This document shows positions 24,696 to 47,755 of a stretch of DNA of 47,755 bases, piece by piece; positions within the stretch are counted from its first letter, which is position 1; the number at the start of each line of letters is the position of its first letter. The notes under the pieces are model-generated. The model was given only the letters and a program-made list of their open reading frames with translations. It did not search any database and had not been told where the DNA came from. The position numbers and the translations under genes are program-made. The stretch covers positions 1-47,755 of the IMG/VR virus record IMGVR_UViG_3300027675_000008. The stretch is one strand, 5' to 3'. Source of the DNA: a virus.

Positions 24696-25562
24696 TTACC
24701 TAGCACCCCTCCGCGGCTCCAAGCCATTCTCATCCATTACAACAGGCTGCTGTTGCATTGGTGGCTGATTCATAATATCAGTCATACCGTTAGTATTCTG
24801 TAGAGTATTCTGTGGAGTAGTTCCATACAGGCTAGACATACCTGGCATTCCCTGACTACCACCACCCATCCTCTGCATAATCTGATCAAATCCACTACCG
24901 CCAATTCCATAACCGGGAATATTGTTAGGTCCCATGTCATGTATCCGGCCATTCAATTGATTGAATGGACCTTCTGCTAGATTAGATGGAGTTTCCTGAG
25001 TATTCATAGGACCAGTTAGACCTACATTATTTGCAGCGCCCATCTGAACTCCACCAGTAGGTTCAAGTTTATTCATATTTGGTCCCGGAGACATAGCCTG
25101 TCGACCATATCCCTGAGTTGATGGACCTTCAGGAGGTGTATTGATTAGTGGCTGTGGAAGTTGACCAGCCATAGTTCCACCAATGGGCCTACGCGGACCC
25201 CCCATACCTACATTCGTATTAATTGCCCGCATCAATGAGTTTGCGCCACCCATCATTGGATTGGCCTGTTGACTCTGTGTCTGTGGAGTCCTATTCATCA
25301 TGCCAGACATTACTCCACCAGCAGCCTGAGCCATATTATTCATCATGCCAGCATTAGGATTAGGCTTACCCATCATACCAGGTCTACCCTTCATGATGGG
25401 ATTAGCCTTCAACTGCTGTTTTTGGGCAAAATTATTTCCTGTATTCACTCCAGCAGGCACCTGTTGGGCGAATCCCTGTCCTGCGGCATTAGGTACAGCT
25501 GATTGGATGGAATTACCACCCATTGCAGATTTACCCTGCTGCATTGTATCAAACATGCCCAT
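24696..25562 (-). CDS. Met/Gly/Asn/Gln-rich low-complexity protein (288 aa)
   Basis: It begins MGMFDTMQQGKSAMGGNSIQ and is almost entirely low complexity, with clusters such as GRPGMMGKPNPNAGMMNNMA and QPPMQQQPVVMDENG. No Cys, no clear domain. The start overlaps the upstream stop (TAATG). Such proteins occur among virion components of short-tailed phages, but may also be assembly aids. Function unknown. Confidence 0.72.
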   Translation of the reverse strand: MGMFDTMQQGKSAMGGNSIQSAVPNAAGQGFAQQVPAGVNTGNNFAQKQQLKANPIMKGRPGMMGKPNPNAGMMNNMAQAAGGVMSGMMNRTPQTQSQQANPMMGGANSLMRAINTNVGMGGPRRPIGGTMAGQLPQPLINTPPEGPSTQGYGRQAMSPGPNMNKLEPTGGVQMGAANNVGLTGPMNTQETPSNLAEGPFNQLNGRIHDMGPNNIPGYGIGGSGFDQIMQRMGGGSQGMPGMSSLYGTTPQNTLQNTNGMTDIMNQPPMQQQPVVMDENGLEPRRGAR

Positions 25563-27253
25563 TAGCGTAACCTTCCTGTAACGACTTGGGCAGTATAACC
25601 ATTGGGCTGTCCATTTGTGCTTCGCACAAAATCAAAGGACAACTCTTGACCCAAATCAAACTGTTGTTCTGGATGTACTGTACCGTCGAAGTCTACGAAG
25701 GAGAGGAAACAGGCGCGCTCGCACCTTGTACGAGTATGTCCTTGATCCCCATAGAAGATACCAAAAATCCTGCCTTCATGAGAGATCCGGTGATCGAATC
25801 GTAGGGTATCTTCTGCGCACGGACTAAATACCCTGTTACCGGATTGACTAGCACCAAAATGAAAGACTCCGGGCCAGCCCATAATGTCGATTGGAACGAT
25901 ATTTTTTGCGACTGGGACTTCATAGAATCCAGGGTAAGTAGTAATATCTGAGTCACTCTTTACGCCTGCTCCACAGAAGTAGTTGAATCCCTGATCACAC
26001 ATCAATGACTGTACAGCCAGAGCACACATATGGTTGCTATCGACATCGCGACCATCATAACAATGACTTGGCTTAACGCTAACCTCATCACCAGGTCCAG
26101 TAGGCTCATCCTGTATTCCATACTTGGATGGTGGATGTCCTTCCCATGGACATGAGAAGATATGTCGGATTCTATCGTGATCTTCTGCGCCTCTGTATCC
26201 ATGGATCGCATAAAAATCTCCACCACACCAAGCTGCAATATCATTAGCATGTTCGGTGGGTGGAGCTGTAGTTGTAACTATGACTGTCGAGCATTCCGCC
26301 GTGAAACATTCGAGTGCGTCGGAAATCTCTTCCTTACTATTTGCACCCGTTTGCCACGCTTCATTTCCACCGAATACATACGCGGCTGTTTTATGTTCTC
26401 TGCCTCGGAGGTGTCGTCCAAGTTCTCTAAAGAACTCTTCGTGATTACCCGACCAGAGTTTATAGTCGCCAAGGTTATAACCTCCTTTCATTCCATACTT
26501 ATCTAGCAGATCACCAAGTCGGGAAAGTTGGCCCCAGAAATCCTGAGTATAACCAGGACCACACTCTCTACCTGACCAATAATCTCCTAGTGTACCAAGA
26601 TTCATCCAGAAGTGAATGAATGGATATCCTGCTTCTTGTCCTGCCTTTATAATACGCTCAGCCTTAGTAGGATCACGTACGAAGACACTAAACAGGTCAC
26701 CAACATGAAGCCCAATGGGAAGAATACGATTGTCCTCATCATCCACGAAACCTGCTTCATCTATGCGCAGTTGACCTTTGATTAGTGATTCTACAGGAGA
26801 GAAGAAAGAGATAGGAGGATCAGCAGTGAATGTCTCATATCCACCTGGTTCAAGTGATGGCTCATCCTCAAACATTGGCTGTTCAAGAACTACCTGACCA
26901 TTGGGCCATACTTTAATGAAATAGCCTGGCCTACAGACTGACTCGAATGAGACTTTCTTACCATTGTCCTGAAGAATTAGAAGGAACTTTTCCCATCCAC
27001 CTATTGAAGTACGATTAAATGCAATGATTCCATCCTTACCTTCATTCTCACAGCATGCATAGAATCCATTAGCTGACTTGATTCCATAGATACCTGATTC
27101 GTCAGAAGGAACTATTTCAAAAGTTTCCCACGCGCCCGCAGAATCTCTAGTTGCAGTCATCCAACCAGCAGGTCGTCCGTCAATAACTCCCGGTGCGTGT
27201 CCACCATCCTCCGCGCATGCGAACTTACCGTGGTCTGATTTAAGTGTAGTCAT
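25562..27253 (-). CDS. Beta-trefoil plus clan GH-A-like glycosidase protein (563 aa)
   Basis: Residues 1-145 have three repeats of the type KFACAEDGG / FYACCENEG / GYFIKVWPNG, each followed by W-E-x-F-type strands (WETFEIV, WEKFLLIL): a fascin-like beta-trefoil. From about residue 165 a TIM-barrel-like domain follows: ILPIGLHVGDLFSV, YPFIHFWMNLG, MKGGYNLGDYKLW, AYVFGGNEAW, and GIQDEP. N297-E298 fits the acid/base position after strand 4, and E383 the nucleophile after strand 7, of clan GH-A glycosidases. The C-terminal ~90 residues are beta-rich. I infer a virion-borne enzyme that digests a surface glycan or polysaccharide. It is in the late operon among IPT-domain proteins; a ribosome site AGGAAAG lies upstream. 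Confidence 0.8.
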   Translation of the reverse strand: MTTLKSDHGKFACAEDGGHAPGVIDGRPAGWMTATRDSAGAWETFEIVPSDESGIYGIKSANGFYACCENEGKDGIIAFNRTSIGGWEKFLLILQDNGKKVSFESVCRPGYFIKVWPNGQVVLEQPMFEDEPSLEPGGYETFTADPPISFFSPVESLIKGQLRIDEAGFVDDEDNRILPIGLHVGDLFSVFVRDPTKAERIIKAGQEAGYPFIHFWMNLGTLGDYWSGRECGPGYTQDFWGQLSRLGDLLDKYGMKGGYNLGDYKLWSGNHEEFFRELGRHLRGREHKTAAYVFGGNEAWQTGANSKEEISDALECFTAECSTVIVTTTAPPTEHANDIAAWCGGDFYAIHGYRGAEDHDRIRHIFSCPWEGHPPSKYGIQDEPTGPGDEVSVKPSHCYDGRDVDSNHMCALAVQSLMCDQGFNYFCGAGVKSDSDITTYPGFYEVPVAKNIVPIDIMGWPGVFHFGASQSGNRVFSPCAEDTLRFDHRISHEGRIFGIFYGDQGHTRTRCERACFLSFVDFDGTVHPEQQFDLGQELSFDFVRSTNGQPNGYTAQVVTGRLR

Positions 27254-39709: not shown

Positions 39710-39979
39710 ATGAATCATTACGACGAGTTTGAAGATGTACCACCCTATCTGATGGCCGATGACACGGATCCCTCTATCATTCCTGATCCTGACGTGGACG
39801 ATGAGGACAAGTTGGATCCAGACGATGAGGTTAGCATCGAAGAAGTTGTGGAAGAACTTCACAAGGATGATCTAGAGGACGAGGAGAACGACGATGAGTC
39901 TGAAGCGGAAGCCGATGAAGACGACGCAGAAGATGAAATCGACGAAGAAGAAGCCGACGACGAAGATGTTGACAGTTAG
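39710..39979 (+). CDS. Extremely acidic protein (89 aa)
   Basis: Asp and Glu make up about 48 of 89 residues, with only two Lys. It begins MNHYDEFEDVPPYLMADDTD and ends DEIDEEEADDEDVDS. The charge pattern suggests a DNA-mimic or a histone/DNA-binding-protein partner, as seen in some phage anti-restriction proteins. It could also be an SSB-like acidic tail supplied in trans. ATG follows GGAG. Function is unproven. Confidence 0.8.
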   Translation: MNHYDEFEDVPPYLMADDTDPSIIPDPDVDDEDKLDPDDEVSIEEVVEELHKDDLEDEENDDESEAEADEDDAEDEIDEEEADDEDVDS

Positions 39980-39993
39980 AACGAACAGGATTC

Positions 39994-40136
39994 ATTGGAT
40001 AGACTCTAACGATGCAGAGGTGTCAGCCTTATCTAATAAGCCTGACTAAGTTGCTGTTAGAGCGAGTCTGATGATAGAGGGGCTATCCAATACTTCCGTT
40101 ACAGGGCGGATGCCAACGGATAGTCCCTCGCTTTTT
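39994..40136 (+). promoter_or_regulatory. Structured RNA leader with mutually exclusive antiterminator and terminator helices
   Basis: ATTGGATAG (39994-40002) is perfectly complementary to CTATCCAAT (40083-40091), closing a domain that contains CTCTAAC/GTTAGAG and a 10-bp hairpin GTCAGCCTTAT/ATAAGCCTGAC (40022-40046, one C-C mismatch). CTATCC is also part of GAGGGGCTATCC (40077-40088), which pairs with GGATAGTCCCTC (40118-40129) to form a terminator stem, followed by CTTTTT (40131-40136). The two pairings exclude each other, as in riboswitches and attenuators. Downstream lies the cold-shock-domain gene. No known ligand class was recognised. Confidence 0.7.
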
Positions 40137-40173: not shown

Positions 40174-40491
40174 ATGGAAGAGACTACGGAGCGTAAAGTA
40201 GTAGGTCGGGTAATCAAGGTTCATAAGACTGGATGGGGGTTCATTAGTTCACGAGATATCGAGTTCACTAGAATCTTCTTTCATTGGACTGCATTGAGAC
40301 AGGACACTGTTAAGTTCCCTGAATTGAAGACTGGTAACTATGTCGAATTCACGCCAGTAGAGATTCCTGGTAAGGGATTCAGAGCTGTGCATGTGCGCGT
40401 AGTTCCGAAGCCTGAGGTGAATGATGGAACAGAAGTCATTGAATATCCCGAAATCGAAGATGAAGTGTCCGAATTGTCAGAATCAGAGTGA
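40174..40491 (+). CDS. Cold-shock-domain RNA/DNA-binding protein (105 aa)
   Basis: MEETTERKVVGRVIKVHKTG, then WGFISSRDIEFTRIFFHWTAL: RNP1 (GWGFISS) and RNP2 (RIFFHW) of a cold-shock domain. Later GNYVEFTPVEIPGKGFRAVH completes the barrel. An acidic tail follows (EIEDEVSELSESE). It probably binds single-stranded RNA or DNA. It is placed directly after the structured leader; overlap with the zinc-ribbon gene is 71 bases. Confidence 0.88.
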   Translation: MEETTERKVVGRVIKVHKTGWGFISSRDIEFTRIFFHWTALRQDTVKFPELKTGNYVEFTPVEIPGKGFRAVHVRVVPKPEVNDGTEVIEYPEIEDEVSELSESE

Positions 40492-40769: not shown

Positions 40770-43382
40770 GTGAGTGAAAAGAAATATGTTCCCGGTATGG
40801 GTCCAATAGGCGCTAAGTTGGTCATACTGGGAGAGGCCCCATCATATGAGGAAACGGCTAAGGGTCAGCCGTTCATCGGTCCTTCTGGTAGAGAACTAGA
40901 CAGATTACTCAAGGATGCGGGGATGCATCGGGGTAACTGCTGGATTACGAACGTGTGTAAGTACGAAGTCCCATCTAATGCAGTAAGAAAGAAGCTACCA
41001 TTTCACATACGCGCTCGGAATGCGGGTATTGACATGGAACAGCAACTAGCTGAGCTAAGGAATGAAATTAATGACGTCAAGCCTAACACAATATTGGCTC
41101 TCGGTGGGACTGCTCTATGGGCGTTGTCAGGAAAAGATAAAATTAGTAAGCATCGAGGATCTATCATGTGGGGGATGGGAACTAAGTTTGTACCCACCTA
41201 TCATCCCGCGCATCTGTTACATAGTGCTAGTGGTGGGGAAATTAAGGGGTACTGGAATCGTCAGGTAATGATCTTCGATTTCAAGAGAGCATACGATGAA
41301 TCAGCCAGTCCAGAGTTGCAGCTGCCAAGTCGTGTACTACATATCGCCCAGAACAGTGGGGAGTTATACCAGTTTCTTGATAGATACAGAGACTCCAGGA
41401 AACTCTCTGTCGATATCGAAGCAGGAGGGCACTGTCTTCCTATATGTATTGGACTGGCTTTCAACAAGAACCACGGTATTACTGTTCCTCTGTGGAACGC
41501 GGATAATATTAGTCACATACCAACTGCCGACCTAGCTAGCATGTGGGTTATGCTGAGCAAGGTACTAATGGAGAAAGACATTGTCGGACAAAACTTTAAT
41601 TATGACCGGGATAAGATTCGGCGTCTTGGCTTCACCATACGACGGATACACTCGGATACTATGCTCAAAGCATTCGCCATTAACCCTGAGCTTCCAAAAG
41701 GACTCGCATTCCTCACGAGTATCTATACACGGGAACCATTCTACAAAGACGACGGTATGTATGAAGGGAGTTACCGAGATTTATTGCTTGGCTGCGCACG
41801 AGATGCTTGTGTTACTTACGAAGTAGATGAGGCGATGGATGCGGACCTAGATGAGTTGGGAGTGAGGAAGTTCTACGAGAACTTTATCATGACTCTCCCT
41901 GACTTCTATGCCGAGATTGAGCAGAATGGATTCTACGTTAACGAAGACAAACGAAGGGAGCTGATTACAAAGTATGTCCAATGGGATGAGAGACTCGGAT
42001 TTGAAATGCACGAAATCGCGGGAATTGATGTTAATCCCAACTCTCCTCCGGCTGTTCATTCTCTTCTGTTCGATCTGTGGCATCTGCCTCGCCGTAATGG
42101 AGTGGGTGAAGAGGAACTAACTGCACTACTGAATCTAAAGAATGGGGTTAAACATGTGCCCTATAGGAATTGGATTGAGAAGTGTCTGGAACGGAGACGT
42201 GTACGTAAGACTATCTCCACGTATCTCCTAGCTATTCCAGATTATGACGGGCGCATGAAGACTACTACTTACATGTGTCTGGAGACTGGTCGTACCTCAA
42301 CAGGCCAGCAAGACCCACCCACACGCCCGCTAGTAGATACAGTAGGTAAGGGCAAAAAAGCTGATATGAAGCCTCGTGGGGCCGCGTTCCAAACACTCAC
42401 CAAACATGGTGATATTGGACCGGAAGTCCGAAGTATGTATGGACCTGGCCCAGAGGAAATATTTGTGCAACTGGATAGTTCTCAAGCGGAAGCGAGAGTA
42501 GTATTCAACCTAGCACTAGATGATCAAGCATTGAGGGACATAGATGAACATGACTACCATGCTCTCACAGCTAGTTGGTTCTTTGGTGGCACTGAAGAAG
42601 ACTATTCTAAGAAGGTGCTGGGGTACGAGTCTCCCATACGGTTTGCAGGGAAGACTCTACGTCATGCGGGCCATCTTGGAGCTGGAAAGCGACGAGCATC
42701 TGTTGAACTTAACACGCAAGCAAGAAAATTTAAGATACCGATTACAATTGATGAAGGACAAGCCGATAGAGCACTCAGGATCTTCCATGCGCGGCAGCCT
42801 AAAATCCAACAGGTCTTCCACGCAGGAGTCATTGAAGCTCTTAAAGAGACACGTCAACTAGTAGCTCCATTACCTTGGGGGATTGATGCAGATAGAGGTG
42901 GTGTTCGAATATTCTACGAACGATGGGGTGACGACCTATTCAGAGAGGCATTCTCTTACATTCCCCAGCGAGCAGTCACTGACAATACCAAAGCAGCTGG
43001 AATACGGATCAAGAAGCAGCGACCCTACGCGCGTATTATACTTGAGGCGCATGACGCTCTCTTGTTCGCCATACGACGAGAGTACCTCGATGATTTTATC
43101 CCAGTAGCTCAAAAGGAGATGGAGCGTCCGCTTAATTTCACTAACTGTTCACTAGTGCGTAGACTATTGAAGATACCATGTGAGGTTGAAATCGGTGAGA
43201 ACTATCTGGAATTACACAAGTTTAAGGAAGCGGTTAAGGTGGTTCCTCCTGAGCCTGTTAGGACTCGACCATTAACTATAACTGAGCAATTCACTGTGAA
43301 TGATGAGATGGTGAGGCAGGATCACTATGATAAACTAGAAGAAGCTAGGTACAAAGCTTCTCAAAAGGATATTCCGTTCTAG
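40770..43382 (+). CDS. Uracil-DNA glycosylase / 3'-5' exonuclease / family A DNA polymerase fusion (870 aa)
   Basis: GTG start at 40770. Residues 1-160: family 4 uracil-DNA-glycosylase-type domain with GEAPSYEE (21-28), ITNVCKYEVPSN (59-70) and HPAHLL (145-150), but without the N-terminal CxxC of the iron-sulphur type. Exonuclease: SVDIEAGG (D215, E217), GQNFNYD (274-279), and ARDACVTYE (D345), where the usual Tyr four residues before D is Gly341. Polymerase: motif A LDSSQAEAR (D569), O-helix R624-xxx-K628-xxx-H632-xxx-L636, where E. coli Pol I has Phe762 and Tyr766, and motif C HDALLF (D762). It should copy the phage genome and guard against uracil or proofread; the glycosylase part could also be inactive. 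Confidence 0.9.
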   Translation: MSEKKYVPGMGPIGAKLVILGEAPSYEETAKGQPFIGPSGRELDRLLKDAGMHRGNCWITNVCKYEVPSNAVRKKLPFHIRARNAGIDMEQQLAELRNEINDVKPNTILALGGTALWALSGKDKISKHRGSIMWGMGTKFVPTYHPAHLLHSASGGEIKGYWNRQVMIFDFKRAYDESASPELQLPSRVLHIAQNSGELYQFLDRYRDSRKLSVDIEAGGHCLPICIGLAFNKNHGITVPLWNADNISHIPTADLASMWVMLSKVLMEKDIVGQNFNYDRDKIRRLGFTIRRIHSDTMLKAFAINPELPKGLAFLTSIYTREPFYKDDGMYEGSYRDLLLGCARDACVTYEVDEAMDADLDELGVRKFYENFIMTLPDFYAEIEQNGFYVNEDKRRELITKYVQWDERLGFEMHEIAGIDVNPNSPPAVHSLLFDLWHLPRRNGVGEEELTALLNLKNGVKHVPYRNWIEKCLERRRVRKTISTYLLAIPDYDGRMKTTTYMCLETGRTSTGQQDPPTRPLVDTVGKGKKADMKPRGAAFQTLTKHGDIGPEVRSMYGPGPEEIFVQLDSSQAEARVVFNLALDDQALRDIDEHDYHALTASWFFGGTEEDYSKKVLGYESPIRFAGKTLRHAGHLGAGKRRASVELNTQARKFKIPITIDEGQADRALRIFHARQPKIQQVFHAGVIEALKETRQLVAPLPWGIDADRGGVRIFYERWGDDLFREAFSYIPQRAVTDNTKAAGIRIKKQRPYARIILEAHDALLFAIRREYLDDFIPVAQKEMERPLNFTNCSLVRRLLKIPCEVEIGENYLELHKFKEAVKVVPPEPVRTRPLTITEQFTVNDEMVRQDHYDKLEEARYKASQKDIPF

Positions 43383-44778: not shown

Positions 44779-45035
44779 TGTTGATACCAAGACCCACGCA
44801 CAATGACTACTGGGAAATTACTCCTATCGAGCCGACCTACTCAACAGGAGAGGACAATAGTAGACATTGCGCGTGGGTCAAATGGTTCTTTGAGCAGACT
44901 CCTTGGGTGTGTCCTGTGTGTGGAGCCAAGATAGTCTACTCATGCGATTACTGCGTGTGTTGCAAGTTCAAGTATCACAGACACACGCCCAGACCTACCG
45001 CCACTTCCCCTTGTAAGGCTCCGGCAACTGGTTAG
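44778..45035 (+). CDS. Zinc-ribbon protein at the end of the early block (85 aa)
   Basis: ATG 44778 overlaps the previous stop; an earlier in-frame start at 44745 lies inside the preceding gene and is rejected. MLIPRPTHNDYWEITPIEPT, then WVCPVCGAKIVYSCDYCVCC: at least five Cys in a zinc ribbon. Its last 41 bases overlap the end of the giant gene on the other strand, so the two blocks converge here with no visible terminator between them. Confidence 0.78.
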   Translation: MLIPRPTHNDYWEITPIEPTYSTGEDNSRHCAWVKWFFEQTPWVCPVCGAKIVYSCDYCVCCKFKYHRHTPRPTATSPCKAPATG

Positions 45036-47755
45036 GATCTTTCTCTCCCCAGTTCCAAGGCATCATCTTCTGTAGTCCCTCGTTGCCTTCGTACACATAA
45101 TCATACTCTTTAGGAATGAACTTAGCTCTAGACTCATTCCTCTCGTAGATCTGTGTACCATCACCGATAGCTGCCTGAATTCCGAATGGTACAAGTAGCC
45201 AAGGTTCTTCCTTGGCAATTTCTACCACATCCTGGAAGAACAGAGGTACAGCTAACTGGATAATACGATCTCCTACATGGAATGGATTGTTCTTATCCGC
45301 GGTGGCAAGGTCTATCGCAAACTTCAACATTGGTTCCGTCTTGTTAGTCATGAATCTAAAGAAGTTAAATCCATGAGTGTCACCTCGATACTCCTCACCA
45401 AATCTCTTGAATTCATCGGAGCTGGCGGTAGTATGTCCACCGTACCAGTGTCTACCATACAGTACAAGGAACTGAAGTAGACCCTGACCGGGATCAAGGC
45501 GCACGTTACCCATTCTATTCTTACCAAAGTCTGAACTAGTTACATTGAGGCTAATCTCATTGTCAATACCGAGAGCATCGGCACCCAGTTTATTTACGAG
45601 CATTGACGTAAACCATGCAGCTGCCTGACCTAGAGCAGATCGCATATACTGTTTACGCACAAAGGGACTAGCCATAACATACGTACCTGGATTAAGCATA
45701 CGCACGTGACTAGCTGATAGTCCTGATGCGAACATAGTTCTATTCAATGCGTTCGCGTAGTTCTCTAGATTAGACTCATAATCCTTATGCCAAACCAAGT
45801 GAGTCTTCAATGGACCTGAACCAGTAGCAGTATTGATCCAGTCTCCAATCTCACGTGCGAACACGGGATTAGCAAATGGATTCAATTCAAATGCTTCCTG
45901 AGCAGTCATCTGCTGTGTTCTGAGTCCAGCTCTAACACCAGTAGTACCACCTCCTTGCTGTGTAATCCGCTGAATAGCATCACCTGACATAGCTACTAGG
46001 TTACGAGCCATGTTCTCAGCTACGTTAGTCTTAACAGTATTCAAGAAGGTAGTGTGCATTCTACTGGATACGCGGTATATCTTTCCGGCAACACCTGGCA
46101 ATTCTTCCAACCATCGGCTAGCTACAGCCTGTGCGCGAGGTCCAATCTGATTACCACTAGCTAGTGTAAAGAGTTCAATCCCCATATCATCAGCTAGTGA
46201 TGGTAGAGGAGCCCCTTGAGGATGCGCGCGTGTAGGCGCACCTACTGGATGCTGATAGATTAGACTAGCTCTATTTCGTGCATCAATTGCGTCAAATCCT
46301 GCCTGACGCGCAGACATAGGAATTTCCATTACAGCCTTCCAATATTCAGGTCGGGTAATCATACCCGCTCCCTGTCTCTTTAGGAAGGATACATCACCAG
46401 CAGTCATAGCATGACGAGGAACCTGCATAGCCTCGTCTAATGTACTATATGGTGCAGGCGGTGCTGGTGGTGTCGCTGGTGGATTCGTACGACTGGCAGG
46501 ATTAACTCCACCCTGTCCCCATCCAGCACCACGAGCGGCATTTCTAACTCCCCGCCATGCTCTACCAAAGGGCATACCTCCGAAGATAGCACCAGTACTA
46601 GTACCACCTTCTCCCTTCTCATTCCAACCTTCCTCAAATCTCTTCAGTGTTTCCCTCATATCCTTAACCATAGTGTTAACCCAGTTATAGATACTAGATG
46701 CTTTAGACCTCTCAGTAAACTCTCTAGAGGCGTAAGGCATACCATTCTGACCGGGCTTAGTTACATCTATACTTATCTCATAGTTCTTCAAATAGGTGCG
46801 CATATCTACCAGTTGACGAGCCTGCGCAATAGTAATAGGTGCCTGGATTTCCGCCGTACCATTTCGAGTGCGTATCATTCCAGCCTGAAGTGCCTCATCA
46901 ACAGTAGTACCTAGTGCTTGTGCAATATTCTCATGATTATCCATTTCTTTAGGAAGTTTTCCTAACATATCTCCTTCAGGTGTAATGAAGCGAGCTTCTC
47001 TAGGTATCTTAGTAAGTGGTAGTCCTTCTATAAATTTAGCTACAACAGGGTGATCAAATGGAAGCTTATCATACCAAGATGGAGCCTTGAATATTTCAAC
47101 TTCAGGATCTGCAACATCCTTCCGTCGAATATCCTCAGGTTTAAACCCTGGTAGTATCTGCTGTTCACCTCGCATCATCCCTTCATTGGGGAAGTGTGAG
47201 TTCACCCACGTAGCGAGGGCTTCTGGTGTCATCCTCTCATCATGTGGCTTACCAACAGTTTCTCCATCAGGCAGAACAACATCTATAAATGCAGCTGCAT
47301 CTCCCCTCTGGACGCGCAAATTGAGAACTTCACGCGCCTGTCTAATTGTGATAGGTCCTCTAGTTTCAGTAGTACTACCACTCACACGAATTACACCAGT
47401 CTTAAGGACCTCATCATGCTTCAACCCAATGTCTCTAAGGGCTTGCGCATGAATCAGTCGATCAGGCTTAGCTAGTCTAGTTCCATTTGGTGTGATAAAT
47501 GCAGTCTGTTTAGCTGTATCAGCTACAGTAAATCCATCCCGCATAATCCGTTCTATTTCTTTTGCACGCTCTTTCTTTCCAGCAAGAGTGCGTGGAGCCT
47601 TAGACATATCTTCTTTGTACAACTCAGCTAGATACTCTTCACCTGTGGGTTTACGTCCCAGCTTCTCCTCTAGCTGGTTCCACAGGTCCATAGAACTACC
47701 TTCATCCCGTGTCATAGCACCGGGACCCATCTTCTTATTACCTAGTCCAATGTCA
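44995..47755 (-). CDS. Giant virion-associated protein, C-terminal part
   Basis: The frame is open to the right edge and joins the frame at 1-4778 through the terminal repeat, so this is residues about 1565-2481 of one protein. Two copies of a ~62-residue unit are visible: FITPNGTRLAKPDRLIHAQA...ITIRQAREVLNLR (about 1648-1709) and FITPEGDMLGKLPKE...ITIAQARQLVDMR (about 1817-1880). A Pro-rich linker follows (NPPATPPAPPAPYSTLDEA). The C-terminal ~300 residues are helical with hydrophobic patches (GQAAAWFTSMLVNKLGADAL, VPLFFQDVVEIAKEEPWLLV), resembling the C-terminal domains of large polyvalent phage proteins. It could form part of the DNA-ejection channel. Catalytic motifs were not recognised. 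Confidence 0.85.
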   Translation of the reverse strand, partial: DIGLGNKKMGPGAMTRDEGSSMDLWNQLEEKLGRKPTGEEYLAELYKEDMSKAPRTLAGKKERAKEIERIMRDGFTVADTAKQTAFITPNGTRLAKPDRLIHAQALRDIGLKHDEVLKTGVIRVSGSTTETRGPITIRQAREVLNLRVQRGDAAAFIDVVLPDGETVGKPHDERMTPEALATWVNSHFPNEGMMRGEQQILPGFKPEDIRRKDVADPEVEIFKAPSWYDKLPFDHPVVAKFIEGLPLTKIPREARFITPEGDMLGKLPKEMDNHENIAQALGTTVDEALQAGMIRTRNGTAEIQAPITIAQARQLVDMRTYLKNYEISIDVTKPGQNGMPYASREFTERSKASSIYNWVNTMVKDMRETLKRFEEGWNEKGEGGTSTGAIFGGMPFGRAWRGVRNAARGAGWGQGGVNPASRTNPPATPPAPPAPYSTLDEAMQVPRHAMTAGDVSFLKRQGAGMITRPEYWKAVMEIPMSARQAGFDAIDARNRASLIYQHPVGAPTRAHPQGAPLPSLADDMGIELFTLASGNQIGPRAQAVASRWLEELPGVAGKIYRVSSRMHTTFLNTVKTNVAENMARNLVAMSGDAIQRITQQGGGTTGVRAGLRTQQMTAQEAFELNPFANPVFAREIGDWINTATGSGPLKTHLVWHKDYESNLENYANALNRTMFASGLSASHVRMLNPGTYVMASPFVRKQYMRSALGQAAAWFTSMLVNKLGADALGIDNEISLNVTSSDFGKNRMGNVRLDPGQGLLQFLVLYGRHWYGGHTTASSDEFKRFGEEYRGDTHGFNFFRFMTNKTEPMLKFAIDLATADKNNPFHVGDRIIQLAVPLFFQDVVEIAKEEPWLLVPFGIQAAIGDGTQIYERNESRAKFIPKEYDYVYEGNEGLQKMMPWNWGEKDPNQLPEPYKGKWR
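47663..47755. repeat. Terminal repeat, right copy
   Basis: Matches 1-93 except at three bases, corresponding to GAC/GAT, CTA/CTG and GGT/GGC in the giant gene; all three are third-position, silent changes. See the left copy. Confidence 0.9.

Follow-up and report, generated by a model that had tools for sequence, protein, structure and literature searches.

A conserved two-helix RNA element ahead of the replication genes of uncultured phages

Phage HK022 carries the putRNA, a cis-acting RNA of about 70 nt that acts on the early genes and consists of two stem-loops side by side, with non-canonical pairing and with an A-G pair where they join (PMC9378689). In E. coli, terminators are repressed by ribosomes near stop codons (PMC4824070), and cold-shock proteins, including the acidic-tailed CspD, attenuate intrinsic termination (PMC9765468). 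The element described here may be set beside all three: it comprises two adjacent helices, designated P1 and P2, it begins on or close to a stop codon, and it lies upstream of a gene for a cold-shock-domain (CSD) protein. Judged by sequence comparison, the two-helix element is a real conserved RNA structure, and it represents a previously unlisted RNA family, absent from Rfam, whose carriers are uncultured phages.

Gene neighbourhood and fold of the leader

The window, i.e., the whole stretch of DNA that was analysed, comprises the 47,755 bases of an IMG/VR virus record. Its element is preceded by the genes of a Sak4-like annealing protein and of a 129-aa protein named p129 and by an acidic ORF, while the CSD ORF on the other side is followed by a small zinc-ribbon-like ORF, a 63-aa ORF, a UDG/DNA polymerase A fusion, and a primase-like protein, in this order. 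A tRNA search of the window found none, and a host search with genome contigs and with the 563-aa protein encoded at 25562-27253 gave no useful match. A 911-aa ORF on the minus strand of the window (44995-47730) has no Pfam or PHROG match. The features discussed below are as follows.

39710-39979, plus strand: ORF of the acidic protein, 89 aa, 54% Asp+Glu; P1 starts 15 nt after the first base of the stop codon (39977-39979)
39992-40000, plus strand: 5' strand of P1, TCATTGGAT, pairing with 40066-40074
40004-40062, plus strand: extension of P1 (40004-40011/40055-40062) around the optional inner module, from the window fold
40014-40054, plus strand: inner module GCAG-AGGU-GUCAG ... CUGAC-UAAG-UUGC, with a 4x4 internal loop (ARNU/UAAG) between two helices
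40066-40074, plus strand: 3' strand of P1, GTCTGATGA, pairing with 39992-40000, with covariation
40075-40076, plus strand: UA linker of 2 nt from P1 to P2, UA or CA in most relatives
40077-40088, plus strand: 5' strand of the P2 outer stem, GAGGGGCTATCC, 12 bp with 40118-40129
40089-40117, plus strand: P2 internal loop (AAUACU / UGCCAAC in the window, bases conserved) and inner hairpin (40095-40100/40105-40110)
40118-40129, plus strand: 3' strand of the P2 outer stem, GGATAGTCCCTC, pairing with 40077-40088
40130-40136, plus strand: tail GCTTTTT, an invariant G and then the U-tract, from base counts over 61 elements
40174-40491, plus strand: ORF of the CSD protein with an acidic C-terminal tail, the first gene 3' of the element (Pfam CSD, E 7.7e-09)
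40770-43382: UDG-DNA polymerase A fusion with an N-terminal UDG-superfamily domain (Pfam UDG residues 8-162, DNA_pol_A 408-812)

The original prediction placed here a terminator-like hairpin before the CSD and polymerase genes, together with an upstream domain whose closing helix would exclude the hairpin. Part of this description stands. The leader is a genuine, evolutionarily maintained structured RNA with a terminator-like hairpin; the 12-bp stem at 40077-40088/40118-40129 is present and is followed by GCTTTTT, and so are the two further helices inside the domain. The leader (39992-40136) folds at -56.6 kcal/mol with a z of -5.3, far better than its shuffled versions, none of 200 being as good. 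The closing helix, in turn, had to be replaced: ATTGGATAG (39994-40002) is indeed perfectly complementary to CTATCCAAT (40083-40091), but the minimum-energy fold contains a domain closed by P1 (39992-40000/40066-40074), immediately 5' of the terminator stem. Accordingly, the statement that only one of the two structures can form is right for the 39994-40002/40083-40091 helix and P2 but wrong for the conserved P1 and P2, which share no bases and can coexist.

The element in related phages

A DNA polymerase search returned 80 viral loci, and a second search with a divergent member as the query gave 79 loci, largely overlapping the first set; in most loci, the region 5' of the CSD gene could be aligned by eye. 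The covariance model R1, which covers P2 only and was built from 39 sequences, matches the window once (E 5.7e-13) and gives 63 hits over 74 loci with an E cut-off of 1 and 21 hits in a further set that partly repeats the 74 loci. When applied to 28 whole records, R1 detected a single copy in 21 of them and two copies in one record, and six had no match at E 0.1; the two copies, situated at opposite ends of one record, are probably the same site. A pattern scan independent of the polymerase yielded 79 stretches, 19 of them accepted by R1, and in each of the four pattern-scan loci whose neighbours were examined (L092, L126, L128, and L151), a CSD gene follows closely downstream. Altogether, the same element occurs at more than 90 loci of related phages (some phages having been fetched twice), normally in one copy per genome; the compared sequences are mutually related, and the thresholds of the hand-made finders were set during the analysis. 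A nucleotide search of phage records gave no match. Rfam searches with the whole window and, at a permissive E-value, with the leader returned nothing relevant, and in 11 relatives, a single tRNA only.

Covariation, proposed as a check of the original prediction, is strong in both P1 and P2. In 39 phages, 99.8% of the cells of the P2 outer 12-bp stem are paired, and 11 of its 12 pairs show two-sided changes; the outer and inner stems together score 0.696, compared with 0.264 for shuffled sequences and at most 0.199 for slid versions. The internal loop of P2 is conserved as AAYAC / NNUUAC in most relatives, and one pair within it (alignment columns 31-57) also undergoes two-sided changes, being A-U in 24 sequences, G-C in four, G-U in two, U-A in one, and other in eight. 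More divergent phages keep the P2 stem and have a variant loop, ACGUA..CGUAUAA. The junction between P1 and P2 carries a conserved unpaired A and G.

For P1, 93.1% of the cells are paired and nine of ten pairs show two-sided changes, both figures coming from a subset of 46 of 60 segments. Because the 5' strand of P1 had been located by pairing, a control was run with own and foreign strands: the mean score of the 5' strand is 10.95 with its own 3' strand versus 7.49 with the strands of other genomes, and positions 6-10 pair in 88% and 55% of cases, respectively. By inspection, the usual base of P1, UUCAU/AUGA, is replaced in L193 by UUGCCGG/CCGGCAA. What P1 encloses is variable. An inner module of the type YCAG-ARNU-helix-UAAG-YYGR, located as in the window, is present in about 18 of 61 P1 arms (the search accepted 22, including four apparent chance hits, and it also matches 35 of 305 shuffled sequences). 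The divergent L050, L051, L055, L072, L199, and L200 contain another conserved inner module, GGAAAAAUAUC ... GAGGCCARAAG, and in some members P1 is a bare hairpin devoid of any inner module. Two other candidates for this region were rejected: leader-peptide attenuation, as the short ATG frame at about 40012 does not recur in relatives by eye, and a hammerhead ribozyme, of which CUGAUGA occurs at the junction in the window without forming a conserved core.

An acidic ORF lies directly upstream of the element in nearly all relatives, with the exception of L195, where a non-acidic gene ends about 107 nt before it. Among 57 elements with an acidic upstream ORF, its stop codon is mostly found 3-22 nt before P1 or inside P1; it is no more than 15 nt before P1, or inside it, in 52 of 56 elements, a list that omits the outlier L043 (+111), whose P1 assignment is doubtful. 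A CSD gene is present within about 1.05 kb downstream in all 93 R1-positive loci counted, some phages having been fetched twice, but the distance to it varies from 6 to 1050 nt, and no CSD gene was found near the element of L074, which bears both P1 and P2, was missed by R1, and was recognised by eye. On these two counts, it is the gene boundary, not the CSD gene, to which the element belongs. In many cases, the next start codon follows P2 by only 6-45 nt, a distance that would hardly accommodate a separate promoter, if at all. At the same boundary in L039, L058, and L196, the element is replaced by a plain hairpin with a T-run.

Several further features of this neighbourhood have been observed. 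A second CSD-like ORF is located downstream of the polymerase in L180 (about 5984) and also in L173, L174, and L189. Between p129 and the acidic ORF, L022, L023, L060, L029, and L045 have a hairpin with a conserved loop, CRYGACCUAY, and a varying stem, possibly a second structured RNA element. In the same interval, L058, L193, L175, and L179 share a conserved AUGAAARUYRGGAUAM stretch, flanked by complementary arms in L175 and L179.

The tail of the element is peculiar. The base right after the P2 stem is G in 61 of 61 elements, and a TTT run follows no more than 9 nt past the stem in 53 of 61, while only 9% of 9-mers in these sequences contain one. A G at the start of the tail should weaken termination. 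In the remaining eight elements, most clearly in L019 and L029, the TTT run is absent and the hairpin is retained, so that it must have a role besides termination. Plain hairpins with T-runs after p129 occur in 25 of 83 distinct regions, and none of these 25 has a tail beginning with G. Finally, there are 54 G-U versus 2 A-C pairs in P2 and 74 versus 11 in P1, counted with finders that accept both pair types equally; this excess indicates that the selected molecule is the plus-strand RNA, not DNA or the minus-strand RNA.

A possible regulated terminator and its rivals

It is quite possible, to judge from these comparisons, that the element is a cis-acting RNA forming a leaky, probably regulated terminator between the Sak4-like, p129, and acidic genes and the replication operon. 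Termination is favoured by the boundary position, by the U-tract, and by the plain terminators that take the place of the element in some relatives, whereas the G before the U-tract, the losses of the tail, and the conserved loop argue for a role beyond termination. P2 would serve as the terminator hairpin, and its internal loop, the UA linker, and the G would provide a conserved recognition surface for a putative factor. A ribosome finishing the acidic gene would hold P1 open; since P1 overlaps the stop codon or starts a few nucleotides past it, a terminating ribosome should disturb it. Termination would thus take place at the element, the downstream replication genes would need read-through, and its amount would be set by translation or by a bound factor, possibly the downstream CSD protein. 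That the CSD protein is the read-through factor is only a guess by analogy with CspD, which it resembles in its acidic tail, and L074, which keeps the element, is a point against it. The mechanism as a whole has to face the lack of competition between P1 and P2, which leaves no visible route from one to the other.

It is rather unlikely that the element defines, in addition, a new class of phage regulatory RNAs, in which a fixed two-helix core with interchangeable sensor-like modules in P1, straddling a stop codon, would let the translation of the acidic protein and an RNA-bound factor jointly decide whether the polymerase enters the replication genes.

An action similar to that of put, the foremost rival, is unlikely. 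By analogy, two adjacent stem-loops of the nascent RNA would bind RNA polymerase during transcription and cause it to disregard downstream pauses and terminators, the hairpin with its short U-tract acting as a loading pause. The two helices with a 2-nt linker, the unpaired junction A and G, the internal loop, and the single copy are all in agreement with such a scheme. However, the HK022 genome gave no hit to R1, which models P2 alone, at E values up to 10; the terminator-like hairpins observed lie on the upstream side of the element, with none shown on the downstream side; a U-tract on the element itself would be odd for an antiterminator; and plain terminators substitute for the element in the three relatives named above.

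Just as doubtful is an RNA acting through the 3' UTR, where termination or nuclease processing would release or protect the 3' end of the acidic-gene mRNA, or free a trans-acting, protein-binding small RNA of 100-180 nt. The almost constant acidic ORF upstream, the exchangeable inner modules of P1, and the persistence of the hairpin without the U-tract in a few phages would suit this role, but there are few conserved single-stranded stretches beyond the junction and the internal loop, an acidic ORF directly upstream is missing in L195, and the element always stands ahead of replication genes.

The switch of the original prediction, in which the closing helix and the terminator exclude each other in response to temperature, a metabolite, or the cold-shock protein, has become very improbable. 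In the window alone, the 9-bp competing helix is unlikely to arise by chance (0 of 60 shuffles), and it appears in some folds of intermediate length. Nevertheless, forcing it costs 14.6 kcal/mol (-46.6 versus -61.2), and at equilibrium it has a calculated probability of about 1e-10 at 37 °C, a value that remains negligible over the range of 4-55 °C. Moreover, pairing of the start of P1 with the 5' strand of P2 is at chance level in 61 elements (median empirical p 0.63 in a test with a mononucleotide shuffle), p being at most 0.05 in only three, the window among them, and the helices of the upstream region with either P2 strand are likewise at chance (median p 0.60-0.63). The relatives lack the competing helix and retain a different P1, compatible with P2; thus, at the level of sequence, the either/or switch proposed from one genome is not conserved. 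An additional match to the 3' strand of P2, with p of at most 0.05, exists in six members, most of them divergent. As for the suggested inputs, P2 stays folded in silico from 4 to 55 °C, with none of the refolding that temperature sensing implies; the Rfam check gave no relevant match to any curated riboswitch or thermosensor family; and the notion of a cold-shock leader is at odds with the variable distance to the CSD gene and with L074. The least credible explanation is that a structure of the DNA itself, for example, an origin of replication or a packaging site, accounts for the element and that RNA plays no part: the single copy beside replication genes would fit it, but the asymmetry of G-U and A-C pairs, the U-tract, and the fixed orientation do not.

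Comparison with known systems

A single genome can suggest a switch, while comparison removes it and reveals a better-supported structure. What emerges is an RNA family with good support, found in phages that are known by sequence alone and placed at a boundary where it may set the amount of replication machinery. If control by read-through is true, the element would be a control point formed by a cis-acting RNA, different from nut/N and perhaps also from put.

Riboswitches and protein-binding attenuators with terminator platforms also combine a structured domain with a terminator before an operon, and the differing inner modules of P1 strengthen the likeness; in contrast to them, the element has no conserved alternative pairing between domain and terminator, and some members possess only a bare P1 hairpin. 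The putRNA of HK022 shares with it a phage origin, two adjacent helices, a minimal linker, non-canonical junction bases, and the presumed action in cis; the differences are the U-tract of the element and the missing R1 match. Intrinsic (Rho-independent) terminators used as attenuators within operons share with the element a GC-rich stem between genes of the same direction and, in most elements, a U-tract after the stem. Unlike these, and unlike the plain terminator-like hairpins that these phages also carry, which have neither the conserved loop nor P1 nor the invariant G, the element combines a conserved internal loop containing a covarying pair with the neighbouring P1 and an invariant G before the U-tract.
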